Shown here piece by piece: positions 3,507 through 55,008 of a stretch of DNA of 64,000 nt. How positions within the stretch are numbered: position 1 is the first letter of the stretch; each line of letters starts with the position of its first letter. The position numbers and the translations under genes are program-made. A model generated the notes under the pieces. That model ran no database searches and was not told the origin of the DNA. It was given only the letters and a program-made list of their open reading frames with translations. Source of the stretch: Larkinella soli (GTDB taxonomy: Bacteria > Bacteroidota > Bacteroidia > Cytophagales > Spirosomataceae); the NCBI RefSeq assembly GCF_003703975.1, contig NZ_QTJY01000004.1:310001-374000 (forward strand), given 5' to 3'.

Positions 3507-4061
3507 GTGGCAACTCCGAGACTGAAAGAAAAATATACGAACGAGATTGTGTCCCAGCTCAAGGAGAGATTCCAGTACAAAAGCATCATGCAGGTACCGA
3601 AACTCTCCAAGATCGTCATCAACAAAGGGATTGGGGCCGCCGTCGCCGATAAGAAGCTGGTCGATGTCGGTGTCGAAGAACTGACGATGATCACGGGCCA
3701 GAAGGCGGTTCCGACGATTGCAAAGAAAGCCGTATCCAACTTCAAACTTCGCGAAGGCATGCCGATCGGCGCCAAAGTAACGCTGCGCGGTGAGAAGATG
3801 TACGAATTCCTGGATCGTCTGACCTCCGTAGCGCTTCCGCGGGTACGTGACTTCAAAGGCGTCAGCGACAAGGGTTTCGACGGCAATGGTAACTATACGT
3901 TTGGCGTGAAGGAACAGATCATCTTCCCGGAAATCACCATCGACAAGGTGAACCGGATCTCCGGGATGGACATCACGTTCGTTACGACGGCCAACACGGA
4001 TGAAGAAAGTTTTGCACTGCTGAAAGCGCTGGGTATGCCCTTCGCCGGTGGTAAAAAATAA
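3507..4061 (+). CDS. rplE: 50S ribosomal protein L5
   Basis: L5 binds 5S rRNA and forms bridge B1b with S13. Translation starts at a GTG codon; no better ATG exists upstream in frame, and the N-terminus [10 protein letters not shown] is normal. The family motifs [33 protein letters not shown] and [19 protein letters not shown] are all present in a protein of 184 residues. The GTG start directly follows a small hairpin, which could limit initiation; that link is an inference. Confidence 0.97.
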
Positions 4062-4082
4062 CGCATTTAGCGAAAAAAGAAC

Positions 4083-4352
4083 ATGGCAAAAGAATCCATC
4101 AAAGCAAGAGAGCGTAAGCGGGCTGCCCTGGTTGCAAAGTATGCCACCAAGCGTGCCGCGCTGAAAGCTGCCGGAGACTACGTCGGGCTGGACAAGCTCC
4201 CGAAAAATGCTTCGCCGGTTCGTCTGCACAACCGTTGTAAACTAACGGGACGTCCGCGCGGATACATGCGGAAGTTTGGTATCTCCCGCGTCACCTTCCG
4301 CGAAATGGCCTCGGCAGGTAAGATCCCAGGCGTAACGAAGGCAAGCTGGTAA
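4083..4352 (+). CDS. rpsN: 30S ribosomal protein S14, zinc-independent type
   Basis: S14 binds the head of 16S rRNA with S3 and S10. The 89-residue product starts [20 protein letters not shown] and ends [24 protein letters not shown]. It has a single Cys ([11 protein letters not shown]) rather than the CxxC-CxxC zinc knuckle of the short form, so it belongs to the long zinc-free class. It is followed by a 107-base gap with a possible internal promoter before rpsH. Confidence 0.97.
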
Positions 4353-4391
4353 GCATTTAACGCGACCTTAGCGAATATCGAAACAATTCCC

Positions 4392-4399
4392 TAATTTTG
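4392..4399 (+). promoter_or_regulatory. Candidate internal promoter -7 box upstream of rpsH
   Basis: TAATTTTG fits the Bacteroidota -7 consensus TAnnTTTG exactly and lies 61 bases before the rpsH ATG in one of the longer gaps of the operon. No clear TTTG -33 element is visible at the right distance, so this is a weak call. The transcript from here would begin with a GC-rich segment able to fold (GGCG/CGCC arms around 4424-4440). Confidence 0.35.
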
Positions 4400-4459
4400 C
4401 AGGCCCGTTTCAGGCGGTACAAGTCGCCGGGAGGGTTTGCAGCTAATAATCAGGAGGAA

Positions 4460-4858
4460 ATGAATACTGATCCCATAGCAGACTATCTGACTCGTATCAG
4501 AAATGCGATCCGCGCCAAGCACCGGGTCGTTGAAATTCCTGCTTCCAACATAAAGAAGGAGATCACGAAGGTACTCTTTGATAAGGGCTTCATTCAGAAC
4601 TATAAGTTCGATGAAACCGGCCCCCAAGGCAGTATCAAGATCGCGTTGAAGTACAATCCGGTGACCAAGCAGCCTGCCATCGTTGATTTGCAGCGGGTAA
4701 GCCGTCCGGGTCTGCGCCAATACAAAGGCTCGACGGATCTTCCTCGCGTGTTAAACGGCCTGGGCGTGGCCATCGTCTCGACCTCGAAAGGCGTGATGAC
4801 GGACAAGGAAGCCCGGACGTTGAATGTAGGCGGTGAAGTGTTGTGTTACGTTTACTAA
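4460..4858 (+). CDS. rpsH: 30S ribosomal protein S8
   Basis: S8 binds the central domain of 16S rRNA and in several bacteria represses the spc operon. The start at 4460 gives 132 residues beginning [17 protein letters not shown], the normal N-terminus; an earlier in-frame start at 4397 would add 21 unrelated residues. Signature segments include [11 protein letters not shown] and [19 protein letters not shown]. An AGGAGG hexamer lies two bases upstream of the ATG, which is rare in this window and closer than the usual Shine-Dalgarno spacing. Confidence 0.97.
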
Positions 4859-18961: not shown

Positions 18962-20308
<1,347 letters not shown>

Positions 20309-21440: not shown

Positions 21441-22388
21441 ATGAAAATTAAGAAAGCGGTGATTACTGCGGCCGCCCGCGGTGAACGCCTGTATCCGGTA
21501 GCCGATACCATCCAGAAGGCCATGCTCCCGGTGATCGACACCGACGGTTTGCACAAACCGGCCATTCAGATCATTGCCGAAGAAGCGTTTTCGAGCGGTA
21601 TCGAAGAGCTTGGCGTGGTCTGCGCTCCCGGCGACGGAGACCGCTATATCCGGGCGTTTACGTCCCTGCGTGATAATCTGGTCAGTTCGTTCAAGGGCGT
21701 GGACTGGGCAAAGAAGGAAGCCGAAAAGATCGATCATCTACTGAGCCGGGTGCATTTTGCGGAGCAGCGCGAGCCGCTCGGCTACGGGCACGCCATCTAT
21801 TGCGCCCGGGAGTTCGTCAATAACGAACCGTTCCTGCTCCTGCTGGGAGATTATCTGTACGTCTCCAATGTCGCTCAGAAACGCTGCGCGGCCCAGCTGC
21901 TCGAACTGGCCAACCAGGAAAACTGCTCGGTTTCGGCCGTTAATCCGACCATCGAGCACCAGATCAGCCGCTACGGAACCCTCACCGGTAAGCAGGTCGC
22001 CAATCGGAACGGCGTCTATCAGATTGAAAAAATCATCGAAAAACCGTCGCTCAGCGTGGCTGAACTGGAGCTGCAGACGCCGGGGTTGCGCGTCGGCTAT
22101 TACCTCTGCTTCTTCGGGATGCACGTGTTCACCCCCGCCATTTTCGATATTCTTCAGAAATACATCGCGCAGGGCGGCACGAACATCATGCTGACGCCGG
22201 CCCTGCAGCAGCTGGCCGAAGCCGAAACCTACCTGGCTCTGGAAGTGAAAGGAAACCGCTATGACCTCAGCCGGCGGCATGGGCTGCTCCGTGCCCAGAT
22301 TGCGCTCGGGCTGGCCGGTGAAGCGAACAGCGAAACCCTGACGACTATTGTGGAACTTCTGGCCGAAGCGAACAGCCGAACCGTCTGA
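21441..22388 (+). CDS. Nucleotidyltransferase, UTP-glucose-1-phosphate uridylyltransferase (GalU) type
   Basis: A 315-residue protein of the Rossmann-like sugar nucleotidyltransferase fold. The N-terminal motif reads ITAAARGERLYPVADTIQKA followed by MLPVID, aligning with the GxGTR(x)LP...K.MLPV motif of GalU but with Ala-Ala-Arg in place of the glycines. A metal-site segment LLLLGDYLY and a C-terminal NRYDLSRRHGLLRAQIALGL fit GalU enzymes, which make UDP-glucose. The changed glycine loop may alter substrate or activity. The next gene, a kinase/pyrophosphorylase fusion, starts three bases later, so the two are one translational unit and probably one pathway. Confidence 0.82.
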   Translation: MKIKKAVITAAARGERLYPVADTIQKAMLPVIDTDGLHKPAIQIIAEEAFSSGIEELGVVCAPGDGDRYIRAFTSLRDNLVSSFKGVDWAKKEAEKIDHLLSRVHFAEQREPLGYGHAIYCAREFVNNEPFLLLLGDYLYVSNVAQKRCAAQLLELANQENCSVSAVNPTIEHQISRYGTLTGKQVANRNGVYQIEKIIEKPSLSVAELELQTPGLRVGYYLCFFGMHVFTPAIFDILQKYIAQGGTNIMLTPALQQLAEAETYLALEVKGNRYDLSRRHGLLRAQIALGLAGEANSETLTTIVELLAEANSRTV

Positions 22389-22391
22389 CCC

Positions 22392-25300
22392 ATGAATGTT
22401 TTTATCGAGACCATTACCTCGGCTGAACCGGAAAAACGGGATCGGTCTTTTTACGATATAAGCCGGAAACTCTCTGCAAAGGAGTTGCTCGGTGCCCTGC
22501 GTGAACTGGATGACTTCCGAAAGTCGACGCCGAACCTGTACGACAAAGTCCGGGCCATTCTCTTTCTGTATGCCGGGTTTCGGTTTTTCCTGATGGAAGC
22601 GAAAGAAACCCCGCCCATCGGAAAAATACCCTATTCCGGCTTTGAGGATCTCCTTTCCCGCCGTTTCGAACACGCCATTTCGACCTTTCTTCACGAGCTG
22701 GACCAACAGGGCCCCCATGCGGCCCTCTTCAGCGCCCTGGCCGACAGCTACCACCACCTCTCGTTCCAGATCCTAGCCGATCAGGTCCGGAAGAGCGTTC
22801 GTTCCAGCAGGGGCAATCAGTGGATGTTCCGGGTCGGTCATCGCGAAGAACATCCCATCCGAATCCACCCCCGGCTCCTGAAACGACCGGCCGATTCGCT
22901 TTTCTATCCGATCCTGCACGAGCAGACCTCCGTCCGGATGGACCTGACCCACAGCGGCTGGTCGGATATTTTCTTTCTGGGCATGGACTACCCGGAAGGC
23001 GCGCGGGTGATCAACATCTCCATCGACCTGGGCGTGTTCGGCCGCGACAGGGACATCCGGCCCCCCCTGAACTGCTACGTGCGGGTCATTCCCGACCCGG
23101 TGCTGCGCCTGACGAGCATCGACCTCAACACCACCAAGGACATTCACGACCTGGCCGACCTGTTCAACTTCGGGAACGATTACCTGAGTCTGGTTAAAGC
23201 CGGCGTCATTGCTTCCGGCCTGATTCCCCCCTCGTTTGAAGGGACCAACCAGTCGCTGCCCGATATCCTGTCCCGCATCGTGGCGCCGGGTATGGGCATC
23301 GAACTGGTCACGAAAGTGAACGACATTCCGAAGGGGTCCCGCTTTGCCGTTTCGACCAACCTGCTCGGCTCCATCATCAGCCTGCTCATGCGGGCCACCG
23401 GCCAGACCCGAACGCTGGAAGGCGGTCTGGAGGAAAGCGAACGCCGGCTGGTGGCGTCGCGGGCCATCCTGGGCGAGTGGATCGGCGGCTCGGGCGGGGG
23501 CTGGCAGGACTCCGGTGGAGTCTGGCCCGGTATCAAAGCCATTCAGGGTACGTTCTCGCAGGAAGGCGACCCGGAGTTCGGTATCAGCCGCGGCACGCTG
23601 CTGCCGCGTCACCGCGTGCTGCAGGGAGAGGAAATCCATCCCGACGTCGACGAAAAGATCATGAACTCCCTGGTGCTGATGCACGGCGGGATGGCTTCCA
23701 ACGTCGGCCCCATCCTGGAGATGGTGACGGAGAAGTACCTGCTCCGCGGGGAGAAGGAATGGGACGGCCGCCGGCAGACCAATCAGATTTTCAACAACAT
23801 CCTGGAGGCCATTCGGGAAGGCGATATCAAAAAGCTGGGGGCCAATACCGCCCGAAACTGGGAATCTCCCATCAAAACCATTATTCCCTGGGCGTCGACC
23901 CATTTCACCGAGCAGATCATCGCCAAAGCCAAAAAGGCCTTCGGTCCGAATTATTACGGCTTTCTGATGCTCGGCGGGATGTCGGGCGGGGGCATGGGCA
24001 TGTTTGTCAACCCCGACGGCTACGAGAGCCATAAGATGAAGGTGCTGGAGATCCTGCGGGAAACCAAGGAAGAACTCTCGGCCGCGCTGCCGTTTGCCAT
24101 GGAGCCGGTGGTCTACAACTGGAGCATCAACCGGAAAGGAACCTGGGCCACCCTGCGCGAAGGCGCGGAGGCCCTGATGCCGGAGCAGTATTACGGCATT
24201 CATGTGTCGGAACTGGTGCGCCGGGACCCGGCTTCGATTTCCTACATCCGCCGGGCCGAAATCGACTTCTTTACGACCTACTGCGAACAGAACAACCTGG
24301 CCTACCCGCTGCTGCGGACCATCGTCAGCAACCTGTTCAAGGTATCGGACCCGGGCGCGCAGAGCAACCGCTCCGCCGAGGACGAGAAAGCCGACCGGAT
24401 CAAGAAAGAGAACGGTTTCGATTATATCCAGCACGAAGAAATCCGGGAAGACCTCCAGAAAGGCCGGATCGGTCTGGCCCGAAACCGCCTGTCGGTCGAT
24501 ACGACGATCGAGGACGTACAGCCCGAGGACCTCGCCCGCCTGGAAGAACTCGCCGGCTCGGTCAAAACCGGTGAAGAGGCCATCCGGGGCGGCAAAGTGG
24601 CCGTGCTGAGCCTGGCCGCCGGGGTAGGCAGCCGCTGGACCAAGGGGGCCGGGGTGATCAAGGCGCTGAATCCGTTCGTGGAAATCGACGGCGTACACCG
24701 CAGCTTTCTGGAGATTCACCTGGCCAAGACCCGGCGGGTTTCGGAACAGTATGGCAGCCCGATTCCGCACCTCGTCGCGACGAGCTACCTGACCCACAAA
24801 CCGATCCGGCAGGCGCTGGAAAAAACGAAAAACTTCGGTTTTGCCGGGCCGACCTACCTGTCGCCGGGCCGCTCCATCGGGCAGCGGTTCGTACCGATGG
24901 AGCGCGACCTTCGCTTCATGTGGGAGGAAATGCCGCAGGAAACACTCGACGAAAACAAGCAGAAGGTCCGGGATGCCGTCCGGCAGACGCTGATCGGCTG
25001 GGCCAAGTCGAAAGGCGAGGGGTCCGATTACGTCGATAACATTGCTTCCCAGCGGTTTTCGCCCCTCGGCCACTGGTATGAGGTGTCGAACCTGCTGCGC
25101 AACGGGACGCTGGCCCGGCTGCTGGCCGAACGCCCCCAGGTCGAGACGATCATGCTGCACAACATCGATACGCTGGGTGCCGACGTGGACCCCGCCGTGC
25201 TGGGCTATCACCTGGCGTCGGGCCATATGCTTACCTTCGAGGTGGTTCCCCGCCGGATCGAAGACCGGGGGGGTGGGCTGGCCCGCGTCAACGGCCATGT

Positions 25301-25727
25301 CCGGCTGCTGGAAGGGCTGGCGCAGCCCCGGGAGGAGGACGAGCTGAACCTGAGCTATTACAACACCATGACCACCTGGATTCAGGTGGATCCGCTGCTG
25401 GCCCTGTTCGGGCTGACCCGGCAGGACCTTCAGGACGGCGACGATGCCCTGCTGGCGAAAGCCGTCCGGAGCGTGGCCCACCGCATCCCGACCTACGTGA
25501 CGCTGAAAGACGTCAAATACCGATGGGGACACGGTCAGGAGGATATTTACCCGGTGGCTCAGATCGAAAAGCTCTGGAGCGATATGTCGGCGCTGTCCGA
25601 CGTTTCGTGCGGCTACGTGGCCGTGCCCCGAACCCGCGGGCAGCAGATGAAGGACCCGGCCCAGCTCGATGCCTGGGTGACCGACGGCAGTCGGGATCAT
25701 GTCACTTCCCTGTGCCGGTTCGACTGA
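22392..25727 (+). CDS. Fused GHMP sugar kinase-like and UDP-sugar pyrophosphorylase-like protein
   Basis: A 1,111-residue protein with two enzymatic halves. Residues about 185-690 resemble fucokinase/heptokinase GHMP enzymes: HSGWSDIFFLGMDYPEGARV (near 195), PKGSRFAVSTN (from 313), GGSGGGWQDSGGVWPGIKAI (around 365) and the GGMSGGGMGMFV loop (near 527). Residues about 735-1111 match the UGP/UAP pyrophosphorylase family: LSLAAGVGSRW (739) with a following Lys-Ala, GHWYEVSNLL, HNIDTLGADVD (about 922), a GGGLARVNG segment and YNTMTTW (989). The order kinase then pyrophosphorylase is opposite to bacterial FKP. Residues 1-180 are helical and unassigned. The kinase phosphate loop is degenerate. A salvage enzyme that makes a UDP- or GDP-sugar is inferred; the sugar is unknown. 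Confidence 0.8.
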   Translation: MNVFIETITSAEPEKRDRSFYDISRKLSAKELLGALRELDDFRKSTPNLYDKVRAILFLYAGFRFFLMEAKETPPIGKIPYSGFEDLLSRRFEHAISTFLHELDQQGPHAALFSALADSYHHLSFQILADQVRKSVRSSRGNQWMFRVGHREEHPIRIHPRLLKRPADSLFYPILHEQTSVRMDLTHSGWSDIFFLGMDYPEGARVINISIDLGVFGRDRDIRPPLNCYVRVIPDPVLRLTSIDLNTTKDIHDLADLFNFGNDYLSLVKAGVIASGLIPPSFEGTNQSLPDILSRIVAPGMGIELVTKVNDIPKGSRFAVSTNLLGSIISLLMRATGQTRTLEGGLEESERRLVASRAILGEWIGGSGGGWQDSGGVWPGIKAIQGTFSQEGDPEFGISRGTLLPRHRVLQGEEIHPDVDEKIMNSLVLMHGGMASNVGPILEMVTEKYLLRGEKEWDGRRQTNQIFNNILEAIREGDIKKLGANTARNWESPIKTIIPWASTHFTEQIIAKAKKAFGPNYYGFLMLGGMSGGGMGMFVNPDGYESHKMKVLEILRETKEELSAALPFAMEPVVYNWSINRKGTWATLREGAEALMPEQYYGIHVSELVRRDPASISYIRRAEIDFFTTYCEQNNLAYPLLRTIVSNLFKVSDPGAQSNRSAEDEKADRIKKENGFDYIQHEEIREDLQKGRIGLARNRLSVDTTIEDVQPEDLARLEELAGSVKTGEEAIRGGKVAVLSLAAGVGSRWTKGAGVIKALNPFVEIDGVHRSFLEIHLAKTRRVSEQYGSPIPHLVATSYLTHKPIRQALEKTKNFGFAGPTYLSPGRSIGQRFVPMERDLRFMWEEMPQETLDENKQKVRDAVRQTLIGWAKSKGEGSDYVDNIASQRFSPLGHWYEVSNLLRNGTLARLLAERPQVETIMLHNIDTLGADVDPAVLGYHLASGHMLTFEVVPRRIEDRGGGLARVNGHVRLLEGLAQPREEDELNLSYYNTMTTWIQVDPLLALFGLTRQDLQDGDDALLAKAVRSVAHRIPTYVTLKDVKYRWGHGQEDIYPVAQIEKLWSDMSALSDVSCGYVAVPRTRGQQMKDPAQLDAWVTDGSRDHVTSLCRFD

Positions 25728-25879: not shown

Positions 25880-27415
25880 ATGAACAAGAAAGTCATCCTG
25901 ATGATTCTGGACGGCTGGGGCATCGCCAGCAAGAAGGAAGTGTCGGCCATCGATGCCGCCGACACCCCCTTTGTCGACTCGTTATATCCTAAATATCCTC
26001 ATAGCCATCTGTTGGCTTCGGGGCTGTCGGTAGGTTTGCCGGAGGGGCAGATGGGAAACTCGGAAGTCGGCCACATGAACCTCGGTGCCGGCCGGATCGT
26101 CTATCAGGACCTGGTCAAGATCAACAAGGCGGTGGCCGAACAGACGCTGGACAACGAGCCGGCCCTGGTCGATGCGCTGAATTACGCCAAAGTACAAGGA
26201 AAGAAGGTACACTTCATCGGGCTGGTTTCCGACGGAGGTGTTCACTCGCACATCAATCACCTGAAAGCACTCTGTTCGATTGCCCATAACCGGGGCCTGA
26301 CCGACGTATTCGTTCATGCCTTCACTGACGGACGGGATACCGACCCCAAAAGCGGCTACGGCTATCTCGAAGAACTGGAGCAGCACATGAACGCCACCGG
26401 CGGCCGGATTGCCACCGTGGTCGGGCGGTATTATGCCATGGACCGGGACAACCGCTGGGAGCGCGTCAAACTGGCCTACGATGCCATGGTGAAAGGCGTC
26501 GGCAGCCAACAGACTTCGCCCGAAAACCTGCTTCAGGCCGTTCAGGAATCCTATGACGCCGGAGTGACGGATGAATTTATCAAGCCGATCATCGTGACGC
26601 AGCCCGACGGCAGCCCGGTGGCGACCATTCAGGACGGCGACGTCGTGCTGTGTTTCAACTTCCGCACCGACCGGGGCCGGGAAATTACCCTGGCGCTCAC
26701 TCAGCGCGACTTTCCCGACCAGGATATGAAGAAGCTGAACCTGTATTACGTCACGATGACGAATTACGACAGCGACTTCGTGGGCGTCAAGATCATATAC
26801 GACAAGGACAACCTGAGCAATACGCTCGGTGAGGTCGTGTCGAAAGCCGGCCGGAAGCAGATCCGGATTGCGGAGACGGAGAAATACCCGCACGTGACGT
26901 TCTTCTTTTCGGGTGGCCGCGAGGAGGTGTTCCAGGGTGAAAAGCGACTTCTGTGCCCGTCGCCGAAAGTGGCTACGTATGATCTGAAGCCGGAAATGAG
27001 CGCCTTCGACATCCGCGACGCCATCCTTCCGGAGCTGGAACGTGAGGAAGTCGATTTCGTGTGTCTGAATTTTGCCAATACCGATATGGTGGGTCACACG
27101 GGCGTATTCGAAGCCGCCGTGAAAGCCGCCGAGGCCGTCGATCAGTGTACGCAGGCCGTCGTCACGACCGCCCTGCAGCATGGATATTCGACCATCATCA
27201 TCGCCGACCACGGCAATGCCGACTATATGATCAACGAGGACGGTACGCCCAATACCGCCCACACCACCAACCCGGTGCCCTGCATTCTGGTGGACAGCGA
27301 GTATCATCCGAAGCTGAACAACGGGGTTCTGGCCGACATTGCCCCGACGATTCTGCAACTGATGGGCATTCCGCAGCCCGACGAAATGAAAGGCCGCAGC
27401 CTGATCGTTTCCTGA
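25880..27415 (+). CDS. gpmI: 2,3-bisphosphoglycerate-independent phosphoglycerate mutase
   Basis: GpmI interconverts 3- and 2-phosphoglycerate, the step before enolase, through a phosphoserine intermediate and two metal ions. The 511-residue product starts MNKKVILMILDGWG, with metal-binding Asp, and has the nucleophile Ser61 in MGNSEVGHMNLGAGR. Other signatures are FTDGRDTDPKSG, GRYYAMDRDNRWERV, FNFRTDRGREIT and the C-terminal FANTDMVGHTG and IIADHGNADYM metal ligands. The length is typical. It lies apart from the upstream sugar cassette by 152 bases with promoter-like boxes. Confidence 0.97.
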   Translation: MNKKVILMILDGWGIASKKEVSAIDAADTPFVDSLYPKYPHSHLLASGLSVGLPEGQMGNSEVGHMNLGAGRIVYQDLVKINKAVAEQTLDNEPALVDALNYAKVQGKKVHFIGLVSDGGVHSHINHLKALCSIAHNRGLTDVFVHAFTDGRDTDPKSGYGYLEELEQHMNATGGRIATVVGRYYAMDRDNRWERVKLAYDAMVKGVGSQQTSPENLLQAVQESYDAGVTDEFIKPIIVTQPDGSPVATIQDGDVVLCFNFRTDRGREITLALTQRDFPDQDMKKLNLYYVTMTNYDSDFVGVKIIYDKDNLSNTLGEVVSKAGRKQIRIAETEKYPHVTFFFSGGREEVFQGEKRLLCPSPKVATYDLKPEMSAFDIRDAILPELEREEVDFVCLNFANTDMVGHTGVFEAAVKAAEAVDQCTQAVVTTALQHGYSTIIIADHGNADYMINEDGTPNTAHTTNPVPCILVDSEYHPKLNNGVLADIAPTILQLMGIPQPDEMKGRSLIVS

Positions 27416-51190: not shown

Positions 51191-52649
51191 TCTGGCTGTT
51201 TCGGATCAGCGTCACATAAAACCGGATCATGTTCCGGTAGTCGTCGACCGGCATGCGCTCGTTCGTGCCGTGGATGGTCGGGATGCTGGCTTCGTCGGTC
51301 AGCATCGGCGAGAAGCGGTACACGTTCGGACAGATTCGCGCAAAATACTTCGAATCGGTGCCGCCCAGCACCAGAAACGGCGTCACCACGACCTCCGGGA
51401 AAACACTTTTGATCGTGCGGTGGAGCTTTGTAAAAGCCGGGTCGTCGGGATCGGAGAGGGGCGAAGGCTCCGTACTGGAAGCGCTCATGACCGTCACCTT
51501 CACCTGCTCGTTGTCGATCACCTCCTTCACCCGCTTCGTCACGCTCGCGATGCTTTCACCGGGCAGAATCCGGAAGTTGACCGTCGCCGTGGCATCGATG
51601 GGCAGGACGTTGTCTTTGGCTCCGGCTTTGAAAATGGTCGGGGCGGTGGTCGTGCGGATCAGCGCGTTGCCGGAATTGGTCTGCCCGATGATCCGCTTGA
51701 CGAGCGGGGCAAACAGCCAGTCGTTGGCAAACACCAGCCGCTGCCCGAACGACATCTCCGGGCCGGTATAGGCGAACATCTGGGCCAGACCCGCATCCAG
51801 CCGGGCCGGAAACGGGTTCTTCTGCAAACGGTCGACGGCCTCGGCCACCATGCCGATGCTGGTCTGCGGGGGCGGCATGGACGAGTGCCCCCCGCTCGCA
51901 ACGACCGTTAGTTCCAGGCTGACGTACCCTTTCTCACTGATGCCGACCAGCGCAACCGGTTTTTTCAAACCCGGTATGCCGTCGGTTTTGACCGTGCCGC
52001 CTTCGTCCAGCACGTATTCCAGATCAATATTCCGTTGTTTGAACGCTTTGGCGATGGCTTCGGCGCCCCGTTTCCCGAGTGTCTCCTCGTCCTGCCCGAA
52101 CGCCAGATACACTGTCCGCTCCGGCTGAAAACCGCCTTTCAGCAACCACTCGACCGCTTCACTGATCGCCATGACGCAGCCTTTGTCGTCGCGGGTGCCG
52201 CGGCCGTAGATGATTCCGCCGTCGACCCGGCCCGCAAACGGCGGTCGCGGCCACATCCGCTCGGTGCCCTGAATCACCGGCACGACGTCGTAATGGGCCA
52301 TCAGCAGGATGGGTTTCAACGCCGGGTTGCGGCCTTTCCATTCATACAGCAGGCCGTAGCGGTTGAAGGTTTCGAGCTTAAGCCGGCTGTGCATCAATGG
52401 AAATGACCGTTTCAGAAAAGCCCCGAAAGCCTCGAACTGGGTGGTATCGGTCAGCGAGTAGTCGGTGAAGGAGACGGTTCGGTAACGCAGGGCCTGGGCA
52501 AAACGGTCCACGGCCGAATCGCCGACCGCAACCGGGGGCGCCGGAGCGACGCCGGTCAGCTGCCGCGAAGAAAACCGGAACGTATTGATCACCAGGATAA
52601 CGGCCAGCAGGAAGAGACCGAGCAGGAACCAGCGGAGAAATTTCTTCAT
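51186..52649 (-). CDS. M20 family metallopeptidase, membrane-anchored (carboxypeptidase S-like)
   Basis: A 487-residue di-zinc peptidase with an N-terminal membrane anchor (about 4-26, FLRWFLLGLFLLAVILVINT). Metal ligands and the catalytic Glu are in LLMAHYDVVPV, YGRGTRDDKGCVMAISEAVEWLL and FGQDEETLGKRGAEAI; the last His ligand is in IPTIHGTNERM near the C-terminus. The dimerisation domain starts near LELTVVASGGHSSMPP. The layout matches yeast carboxypeptidase S/PM20D1 more than PepT, so it may hydrolyse peptides or N-acyl amino acids on the periplasmic side. It is convergent with tatC. Confidence 0.9.
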   Translation of the reverse strand: MKKFLRWFLLGLFLLAVILVINTFRFSSRQLTGVAPAPPVAVGDSAVDRFAQALRYRTVSFTDYSLTDTTQFEAFGAFLKRSFPLMHSRLKLETFNRYGLLYEWKGRNPALKPILLMAHYDVVPVIQGTERMWPRPPFAGRVDGGIIYGRGTRDDKGCVMAISEAVEWLLKGGFQPERTVYLAFGQDEETLGKRGAEAIAKAFKQRNIDLEYVLDEGGTVKTDGIPGLKKPVALVGISEKGYVSLELTVVASGGHSSMPPPQTSIGMVAEAVDRLQKNPFPARLDAGLAQMFAYTGPEMSFGQRLVFANDWLFAPLVKRIIGQTNSGNALIRTTTAPTIFKAGAKDNVLPIDATATVNFRILPGESIASVTKRVKEVIDNEQVKVTVMSASSTEPSPLSDPDDPAFTKLHRTIKSVFPEVVVTPFLVLGGTDSKYFARICPNVYRFSPMLTDEASIPTIHGTNERMPVDDYRNMIRFYVTLIRNSQN

Positions 52650-52672
52650 CGTAAATAACAGAGGGTCGGAGT

Positions 52673-54004
52673 TCAGATCATCCCGCGGGCTTTCAACTCC
52701 AGGTACTTATTGACGGTGTCGGCGGTCAGGTGCTGCGGGGCCGTCAGAATGGTCTGAATGCCGTATTGCTGAAGTTCTTTCACGATCAGCTTCTTCTCGT
52801 AGTAAAACTTTTCGGCAATCGTCTTCTGATAAATGGCTTCGGTGCTGTCGGCCGGACCGTCCAATAAACTTCTTAATTCGGTATTTTCAAAGAAAACGAC
52901 GATCAGCAGGTGGTCTTTTGCCAGACGCCGAAGATAAGGCAGCTGCCGGTGCAGGGCGTTGACGGTTTCAAAATTGGAAAACAGCAGCAGCAGGCTCCGC
53001 TGGCGGATGTGCGTCCGGACGCTCGTGTACAGGGCCTCATAATCCGACTCCAGAAACCGGGTTTTCTGCCGGTACAGGACTTCCAGAATCTTCTGCATGT
53101 GGCCCGGCCGGCGTTCGGCGACTACCGTCTGGCCGATTTTTTCGGAGAACGTCATCAGGCCCGCCCGATCCTGTTTCAGCAGCGCGATGTTGCTCAGGAC
53201 CAGCGAGGCATTGATGGCGTAATCGAGCAGGCTGAGCCCCTCGAACGGCGATTTCATGACCCGTCCCTTGTCGATCAGGCAATAGACGGCCTGCGATTTT
53301 TCCTCCTGAAAGGCATTGACCATCAGGTCGCTCCGGCGGGCGGTGGCTTTCCAGTTGATCGTCCGGACGTCGTCCCCCCGGGTATAGGCCCGCACCTGCT
53401 CGAACTCCATGCTGTGACCGATCCGGCGCACCTTCTTGATGCCCAGCTCGGTCAGGCGGTTCGTGATCGCCAGCAGTTCGTATTGCCGCATCTGGAGAAA
53501 AGAAGGGTAAACCGCCACCTGCTTGTCCTGGGAAAACTGAAACCGGCGTTTCAGCAGCCGCAGGGGCGTCATGACGTAGATGTTCAGCGCTCCGAAGCCG
53601 TATTCTCCCCTTCGGATGGGCCGCAGTTCGTACCGGATGGCAGTGGTTTCGTTGGGGTTAAGGGCGGCCTGAAACAGAACGTCGCGTTTCTGAAACTGGA
53701 CCGGTATTTCGTCGATTACCTCCAGATGAACCCGGAACGGATAACGGCTTTCGAGGTAGATCGTCAGCGGGTTGTCGTCCCCGTTCGACAGCCGGTCGGG
53801 CACCTCCCGGCGGGCAAAAACTGAACTCCGCCCCCGAAAGAGCAGTACGGCTTCCAGCACCAGCACGGCCGCGAGTACCGCCAGCGCCAGCTTTACCGGA
53901 GCAAACAGGGCCGGCACCAGATAGGCCGTGATGAACAGCAGGATAAAGCCGGTCAGGGCCATCCAGACGCGTGTGGAAACATACAGGGAGCGGAAAAATC
54001 GCAC
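52673..54004 (-). CDS. DUF58 domain protein
   Basis: A 443-residue membrane protein with two helices near residues 13-52 and a DUF58 domain, marked by GDDVRTINWKATARRSDLMVN around residue 215 and followed by a von Willebrand-A-like core (AVYCLIDKGRVMK). DUF58 proteins are paired with MoxR AAA ATPases and are thought to form chaperone complexes in the cell envelope. It lies downstream of the MoxR gene on the minus strand, separated by 29 bases, in the position expected for such clusters. No experiment defines the substrate. Confidence 0.92.
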   Translation of the reverse strand: MRFFRSLYVSTRVWMALTGFILLFITAYLVPALFAPVKLALAVLAAVLVLEAVLLFRGRSSVFARREVPDRLSNGDDNPLTIYLESRYPFRVHLEVIDEIPVQFQKRDVLFQAALNPNETTAIRYELRPIRRGEYGFGALNIYVMTPLRLLKRRFQFSQDKQVAVYPSFLQMRQYELLAITNRLTELGIKKVRRIGHSMEFEQVRAYTRGDDVRTINWKATARRSDLMVNAFQEEKSQAVYCLIDKGRVMKSPFEGLSLLDYAINASLVLSNIALLKQDRAGLMTFSEKIGQTVVAERRPGHMQKILEVLYRQKTRFLESDYEALYTSVRTHIRQRSLLLLFSNFETVNALHRQLPYLRRLAKDHLLIVVFFENTELRSLLDGPADSTEAIYQKTIAEKFYYEKKLIVKELQQYGIQTILTAPQHLTADTVNKYLELKARGMI

Positions 54005-54033
54005 GGCAGCCGGGGAAAATAGTGACAGATAAA

Positions 54034-55008
54034 TTACCGCGGTACCTCGATCTTCTGAAGCACCTGCGCAATCACTTCGTCGGCGGTGCCGCCCTCCATT
54101 TCGCGCTCGGGGGTCAGCAGGATGCGGTGACGAAGCACCGGCCCGGCCAGTTCCTGAACGTCTTCGGGCGTCACAAAATCCCGGCCCCGGAGGGTGGCGA
54201 GGGCCTTCGAACTGTTCAGCAGCGCCACCGAAGCCCGGGGAGAGGCACCCAGAAAAAGGGATTTATTGCTGCGCGTGCTCTGAACGATCTGCGCAATGTA
54301 TTCGAGCACTTTGTCTTCCACATGGACCTGATGCACCTGCGACCGCAATGCCTGAAGCTGGCCGGCGGTCAGGGCGGGCTGAACGGCCTCCACGCCGTCG
54401 GTGAGGTGACGGCGCTCATGGTGCCCCCGCAGAATGTCGATCTCTTCGTTCAGATTCGGATAGCCGACCACCACCTTGAATAGAAACCGGTCGAGCTGGG
54501 CCTCCGGCAGCCGGTAGGTGCCTTCCTGCTCGACGGGATTCTGGGTCGCCAGCACCAGAAACGGCTCTTCCAGCCGGTAGGTGACGCCGTCGTTGGTCAC
54601 CTGACGCTCTTCCATGACCTCGAAAAGGGCCGCCTGCGTTTTGGCCGGGGCGCGGTTGATCTCGTCGATCAGGACGAGGTTGGCGAAAATAGGCCCCCGG
54701 CGGTATTCGAACTCGGTGGATTTCGGGTTGAAGATCGACGTCCCGAGCACGTCGGACGGCATCAGGTCGGGTGTGAACTGGATGCGGCTGAAATCCACCG
54801 CGATGGTTTTTGCCAGTAATTTGGCCGTCAGGGTTTTGGCAACGCCCGGCACGCCCTCGATCAGCACATGGCCGTCGGAGAGAAGCGCCGTCAGCAGCAG
54901 ATCTATGGTGGCCTGCTGACCGACGATGACCCGGCCGATTTCGGTCCGGATGCCTTCGACGGCGGTTTTGAGTTCGGTTAAGTCCAGACGGCTTTCAAAA
55001 GATGACAT
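54034..55008 (-). CDS. MoxR family AAA ATPase
   Basis: A 324-residue AAA+ ATPase with Walker A GVPGVAKT (52-59), Walker B LVLIDEINRAP (111-121), sensor I in LATQNPVEQEGTYRLPEAQLDRFLFK and a C-terminal lid (SPRASVALLNSSKALATLRGRDFVTPEDV). MoxR enzymes use ATP to remodel or mature partner proteins with VWA domains; the usual partner DUF58 gene is next. The whole region 52673-59803 is one gene cluster of this type. The client is unknown. Confidence 0.96.
   Translation of the reverse strand: MSSFESRLDLTELKTAVEGIRTEIGRVIVGQQATIDLLLTALLSDGHVLIEGVPGVAKTLTAKLLAKTIAVDFSRIQFTPDLMPSDVLGTSIFNPKSTEFEYRRGPIFANLVLIDEINRAPAKTQAALFEVMEERQVTNDGVTYRLEEPFLVLATQNPVEQEGTYRLPEAQLDRFLFKVVVGYPNLNEEIDILRGHHERRHLTDGVEAVQPALTAGQLQALRSQVHQVHVEDKVLEYIAQIVQSTRSNKSLFLGASPRASVALLNSSKALATLRGRDFVTPEDVQELAGPVLRHRILLTPEREMEGGTADEVIAQVLQKIEVPR

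Follow-up and report, generated by a model that had tools for sequence, protein, structure and literature searches.

Which reaction would be catalysed by a protein that carries a sugar kinase and, behind it, a pyrophosphorylase on a single chain, and does this protein stand alone? The question is raised by a locus of Larkinella soli (Spirosomataceae), where a frame of 1,111 amino acids (22392..25727) lies in a stretch of 64,000 nucleotides, positions 310,001 to 374,000 of contig NZ_QTJY01000004.1, called the window below. The frame codes for a helical domain, a GHMP kinase and a UDPGP pyrophosphorylase, and a gene for a GalU-like nucleotidyltransferase of 315 amino acids (21441..22388) ends 3 bp before it; both genes, and all their features given below, are on the + strand. 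The fusion protein probably phosphorylates a free sugar and afterwards links it to a nucleotide, and we consider it likely that the two genes form a nucleotide-sugar salvage cassette, made up of a sugar-1-kinase, a UDPGP-type transferase most likely using UTP, and a dedicated GalU-like partner. In the literature searched the fusion and its partner are an undescribed family, while the nearest kind of process, the two-step sugar activation by enzymes like FKP (the L-fucokinase/GDP-fucose pyrophosphorylase of Bacteroides fragilis), has already been described. The family is large and strongly conserved and spans Bacteroidota, Verrucomicrobiota, Hydrogenedentota and other phyla, and the identification of its sugar would expose a nucleotide-sugar salvage route of environmental bacteria. 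The pairing of one kinase with two unlike nucleotidyltransferases, in a cassette that stands by itself, raises a question that is clear and open to testing.

Domains and conserved residues of the fusion protein

The first-pass annotation, made from the letters of the window, had reported a frame of this length with the motifs of a kinase followed by those of a pyrophosphorylase, and both the motifs and their order were recovered. The kinase signature GGGWQDSGGVWPG occupies residues 368-380, HNIDTLGAD residues 923-931 and NTMTTW residues 991-996; the kinase region covers approx. residues 174-590 (22911..24161) and the transferase approx. residues 721-1111 (24552..25724). The profile searches yielded no dedicated Pfam or NCBIfam model for the fusion. 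A chance frame is excluded by the conservation of its sequence in 80 other loci, and with at least 583 related stretches the fusion is no oddity.

In the AlphaFold model of the fusion, built on a 66-sequence alignment, the mean predicted local distance difference test score (pLDDT) was 89.4 and the predicted template modelling score 0.89, and both folds were recognised by Foldseek comparison with the PDB. The best match was the FKP entry 9iit (E=3.3e-19, root mean square deviation (rmsd) 6.3), while FKP 9iip gave E=5.8e-18, a template modelling (TM) score of 0.75 by target length and an rmsd of 6.0, and the heptokinase WcbL (4usk) E=7.4e-14, TM 0.81 by target length and an rmsd of 4.3. Chains of eukaryote-type UDP-glucose and UDP-N-acetylglucosamine pyrophosphorylases (UGP and UAP) reached TM values of about 0.5-0.6 by target length. 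The annotation had named the lack of a GHMP fold in the N-terminal half as the outcome that would speak against a kinase; in the predicted model the GHMP fold was present, with 9iip and 4usk among its matches.

The sequence relationship of the kinase half is with FKP. The NCBIfam FKP model PRK13412 aligned with residues 177-560 (E=9.8e-21) through its kinase part only and with 73.2 bits, far under its cut-off of 721, in agreement with the earlier claim that the architecture differs from that of FKP. The PDB sequence match of the N-terminal half was again FKP 9iip, at residues 175-393. The Pfam model GHMP_kinases_C stayed under its threshold (E=0.13, 13.1 bits with a cut-off of 21), and the N-terminal GHMP model was absent from the Pfam matches listed for the fusion.

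In the PDB alignment Arg592, Trp599, Asp601, Glu751, Gly759, Gln761 and Asp762 of FKP, the roles of which are described in PMC11982464, correspond to R182, W190, D192, E362, G370, Q372 and D373, all of them invariant in the 66-sequence alignment. W190 and D192, aligned with sugar-binding residues of FKP, belong to the motif GWSD (residues 189-192, 22956..22967), and Q372 together with the catalytic-base candidate D373 to GGGWQD (residues 368-373, 23493..23510). Six of the seven sugar and base side chains of the FKP kinase (R592, W599, D601, T602, E751, Q761 and D762) are kept, T602 being the exception; Ala900, which makes a backbone contact in FKP, was not placed. The glycine-rich ATP loop, PAGSGLGTSS in FKP, is rewritten as PKGSRFAVST (residues 313-322, 23328..23357). 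Across the 81 loci compared, the 80 fetched and the window, it reads PKGSR(F/L)AVST, with R317, A319, V320, S321 and T322 each present in 81 of 81; Ser719 of FKP is retained in it and Ser720 is replaced by Thr. G532-G534 of the third kinase motif are also invariant.

The assignment of the second half to the UGP type was confirmed. Pfam UDPGP (PF01704) matched it above the gathering cut-off (E=2.9e-14, 53 bits with a cut-off of 22; best stretch 886-1002), and its PDB sequence matches, at residues ~889-1000, were eukaryotic UGPs. Residues 744-757, GVGSRWTKGAGVIK (24621..24662), are taken by us to be the nucleotide-binding loop. HNIDTLGAD (25158..25184) presumably supplies a metal ligand, for which D926 is the candidate, and K1039 (25506..25508), which in the alignment stands opposite the NSK lysine of a bacterial UGP (locus L090), is assumed to be catalytic. 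G744, R748, K757 and D926 are each conserved in 81 of 81 sequences and K1039 in 80, the remaining one having a gap.

The annotation had left the N-terminus unassigned, and so it remains. Residues 1-172, modelled alone, gave an all-helical structure with a pLDDT of 90.4, in which the helical domain takes up approx. residues 1-150 (22392..22841), and Foldseek found no PDB fold match for it at E<=0.001.

The GalU-like partner and the distribution of the cassette

The gene directly upstream, the most telling feature of the locus, had been overlooked in the annotation. Since this GalU-like partner adjoins the fusion, the system consists of two genes, not one. Its product matches PF00483 (E=4e-16) and belongs to the family of GalU, but it scored 153.6 bits with the GalU model TIGR01099, under the cut-off of 326.8; a separate true GalU, above the cut-off with 380 bits, is encoded elsewhere in the L. 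soli genome.

In 77 of the 81 loci the fusion has a partner homologue next to it, at a distance of -11 to 237 bp. Of the remaining four, L069 has 279 bp of upstream sequence, which encodes the C-terminal end of a partner (49% identity, E=1e-22) and brings the number of loci with a whole or partial partner to 78, and L020 and L022, with 36 bp and 0 bp of upstream sequence, offer too little to show one. Of 150 genomes surveyed in the own family, 22 bear the fusion; the partner was detected (E<=1e-40) in 21 of these and in none of the 128 others. In the one fusion genome without it (G393) the partial fusion match lies inside an open frame of 24,313 amino acids, which we interpret as unreadable sequence. 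The pairwise identities of fusion and partner correlate over the 77 loci (Pearson 0.92), as would also be expected from shared host descent. No third gene is conserved with the pair in the loci compared. In locus L051, from an Acidobacteria metagenome-assembled genome (MAG), a second partner homologue (3891-4763) was seen ~3.2 kb upstream of the fusion, besides the adjacent one.

One contig scan returned at least 583 related stretches among at least 591 pattern matches. The best 80 of these at least 583 were retained; they carry 13 phylum labels, are 55-88% identical in their best segments, and align over nearly the whole length except L022 and L057, both truncated at the end of a contig. Genome surveys found the full-length fusion in seven of 296 Bacteroidota, L. 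soli included, and the fusion in 18 of 194 Verrucomicrobiota, in eight of 149 Planctomycetota and in 31 of 68 Hydrogenedentota (26 as one full-length piece). Within the own family matches were obtained in 22 of 150 genomes, one of them (G393) being partial, and within the own genus in all nine. For most fusion matches both halves were in a single open reading frame (ORF). Besides G393, partial or two-piece matches occurred in three Planctomycetota (G676, G686 and G760; one ORF by frame length, that of G676 incomplete) and five Hydrogenedentota (G793, G799, G801, G810 and G839), some of which may be rare split genes or contig ends. Matches of shorter length in other places are consistent with ORFs of the FKP and UGP kind.

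In a quick tree with 82 rows, the query and its duplicate L001 among them, the sequences cluster mostly by phylum, with 13 label changes for 13 groups where 12 is the minimum. Relative to a single origin in each phylum, the supported branches require at least three changes for Bacteroidota and at least two each for Hydrogenedentota and Planctomycetota. Lone rows labelled Actinomycetota, Pseudomonadota, Fibrobacterota and Ignavibacteriota fall among Bacteroidota; since several rows are MAG contigs, such odd placements may be binning errors. In our reading this is an old family with a patchy distribution, in which some transfer may have taken place.

Proposed function and rival explanations

In the proposed cassette the GHMP domain would phosphorylate a free sugar at C1 with ATP, D373 acting as the base and R182, E362 and the altered glycine-rich loop handling the ATP. 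From the sugar-1-phosphate and a nucleoside triphosphate, of which UTP is the most likely, the UDPGP-type domain would then form a nucleotide sugar, and the GalU-like enzyme would serve as dedicated partner, either as a second transferase or as a subunit helping or regulating the transferase of the fusion. Because W190, D192, Q372 and D373 match the fucose-binding residues of FKP, our first guess for the substrate is a sugar resembling L-fucose (L-fucose itself, L-galactose or D-arabinose). The residue pattern indicates that the substrate is possibly of this kind, though the Ile in place of Thr602 and the usual alpha-D preference of UGPs urge caution.

The closest described systems are FKP and the fish enzyme DrGKUP, a glucuronokinase/putative pyrophosphorylase. 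FKP (PDB 9iit, 9iip and 5yys) likewise performs a two-step sugar activation in a single chain, and its kinase is homologous to that of the fusion and shares with it the base and the Arg, Glu, Trp and Asp residues. In FKP, however, the transferase comes first and contains a beta-helix (PMC11982464), whereas in the fusion the kinase precedes a transferase of UGP type, the N-terminus is helical, the ATP loop differs and the gene for a GalU-like partner is adjacent. The C-terminal domain shares fold and core motifs with the eukaryote-type UGP and UAP enzymes of PF01704, but it sits behind a kinase and is 14-20% identical to the solved members listed. The kinase of zebrafish DrGKUP presumably belongs to another subfamily than that of the fusion. 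DrGKUP also combines a GHMP kinase with a nucleotidyltransferase, and its system, like the present one, includes a short transferase of bacterial type; but according to PMC3938481 this 260-residue transferase is N-terminal and fused, where the fusion has a helical domain without PDB fold match. Since the two parts of DrGKUP, as given there, comprise 260 and 357 amino acids, they leave no room for a UDPGP domain. A kinase-first fusion with a UDPGP domain was not found described in the open-licence literature, in which an account in a subscription journal would be missed; within this scope the claim of an undescribed architecture stands. The claim of a separate invention is valid for the fusion only, since the kinase half itself is a relative of the FKP kinase by PRK13412, 9iip and Foldseek.

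Several observations weigh against the proposed function. The sugar-contact residue Thr602 of FKP is Ile in 81 of 81 fusion sequences, and in the ATP loop two glycines (one to Arg, one to Ala) and one threonine are substituted relative to FKP, the second loop Ser being Thr. The model is weakest just beside the base candidate D373: the GGG of the kinase signature (368-370) is the sole segment of three or more residues with pLDDT below 50. Q831 is in our assumption the counterpart of the uracil-contact Gln of UGPs, in a stretch where the alignment is weak and judged unreliable by us; of the 81 sequences 58 have Gln in this column and 22 have Leu. The two specificities may also misfit, because the FKP product is beta-L-fucose-1-phosphate and the known substrates of UGP-type enzymes are usually alpha-D sugar phosphates. 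Locus L068, with 8 kb of upstream sequence, is the only one that lacks the partner although its upstream part is long enough; no partner match at E<=1e-3 (tblastn) was obtained across its 19.4 kb. A second ORF matching the kinase half (26-36% identity) was found in nine of 18 fusion-bearing Verrucomicrobiota genomes vs 21 of 176 without the fusion, an excess that may be explained by the larger-looking genomes of the former. Finally, alpha-L-fucosidase genes occur in 147 of the 150 own-family genomes and, since they are so common, give no clue to the sugar.

Among the rivals, a cassette of the same type with a substrate that is not fucose-like, for instance a uronic acid or a pentose giving UDP-GlcA or a UDP-pentose by analogy with the glucuronokinase routes of plants and fish, deserves attention, although we doubt it. 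In its favour, the Ile in place of Thr602 alters one sugar contact, and it has been reported that UDP-sugar pyrophosphorylases accept many sugar-1-phosphates (PMC6329318) and that fish glucuronokinase is fused to a nucleotidyltransferase resembling short bacterial ones (PMC3938481). On the other hand four sugar-site residues of FKP (Trp, Asp, Gln and Asp) are retained, the best sequence matches of the kinase half are FKP entries, and the pyrophosphorylase activity of the fish enzyme itself was extremely low (PMC3938481).

A bolder extension of the salvage proposal would join fusion and partner in one complex with three active sites, those of the kinase and of two unlike nucleotidyltransferases, making a nucleotide sugar new to bacteria, e.g. 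an L-fucose-like sugar activated with UDP, which would serve general purposes of the cell outside polysaccharide clusters. This we regard as speculative and rather unlikely.

It is improbable that the kinase half is catalytically dead and acts as a sugar-sensing or structural domain controlling the two transferases. The exchange of two loop glycines for invariant Arg and Ala would be in line with this, but the base Asp, the Arg, the Glu, the loop Ser/Thr and G532-G534 are invariant, and residues 181-560 contain 100 invariant positions vs 54 in residues 736-1111. An equally slim chance is given to the fusion as a replacement of FKP, with another domain order but likewise producing GDP-fucose. 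No FKP above cut-off was detected in L. soli or in any of the 150 own-family genomes, of which 22 have the fusion; yet the transferase half is of UGP type and 128 of these genomes have neither the fusion nor an FKP above cut-off. Since half of the fusion-bearing Verrucomicrobiota genomes, nine of 18, hold the second kinase-half ORF, the fusion is not simply a stand-in for FKP. Very improbable is a cassette running backwards in the cell, from nucleotide sugar to sugar-1-phosphate with regeneration of the nucleoside triphosphate: UDP-sugar pyrophosphorylases are reversible (PMC6329318), and the neighbour families listed include no recurrent glycosyltransferase family, but the fusion to a kinase would favour the forward direction.

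Neighbouring genes and further occurrences

By simple ORF calls in 66 loci the nearest upstream gene was on the + strand in 30 and on the - strand in 27, and the nearest downstream gene in 38 and 25, respectively. The neighbour scan covered 109 nearest flanking proteins from these loci, seven proteins above 900 amino acids and those touching locus ends being excluded. No functional theme appeared among the 25 neighbour families listed of 129, the commonest being phosphoglycerate kinase (PGK) with five members, nor in 20 of 30 close same-strand neighbours scanned. Apart from the cassette and overlapping ORFs, the most widespread ORF cluster was present in eight of 81 loci. Since the scans gave no theme and other clusters reach eight loci at most, the cassette looks self-contained. 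A PMT_2-type protein (L043) and a sugar epimerase-type protein (L064) were seen as single neighbours.

The stand-alone heptokinases of the WcbL/HddA type share the kinase fold, but they presumably lack the sugar-site Trp. In eight fusion-negative genomes of the own family stand-alone ORFs of 326-357 amino acids match the FKP kinase end (e.g. G313:C5:261377-261997), and these are probably HddA-type heptokinases.

A phage origin was rejected, the fusion being present in none of 50,697 phage records. Nine predicted viral structures matched at E<=0.001, all of pyrophosphorylase or nucleotidyltransferase type, and no kinase-transferase fusion was named among the 50 matches listed. A role as defence system was also rejected, neither protein having a PADLOC match at E<=0.1. 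Of 72,556 plasmid records one contained the fusion: the copy on NZ_CP095065.1 of Hymenobacter volaticus (51192-54456) is in three pieces, covers 96% of the query and corresponds to no listed gene.

In five related Verrucomicrobiales-type loci (L056, L065, L072, L077 and L081) a divergent phosphoglycerate kinase lies on the opposite strand just upstream of the cassette, and in the window an enolase gene lies upstream (18962-20308) and an iPGM gene downstream (25880-27415). The occurrence of lower-glycolysis neighbours in two lineages may be a coincidence.

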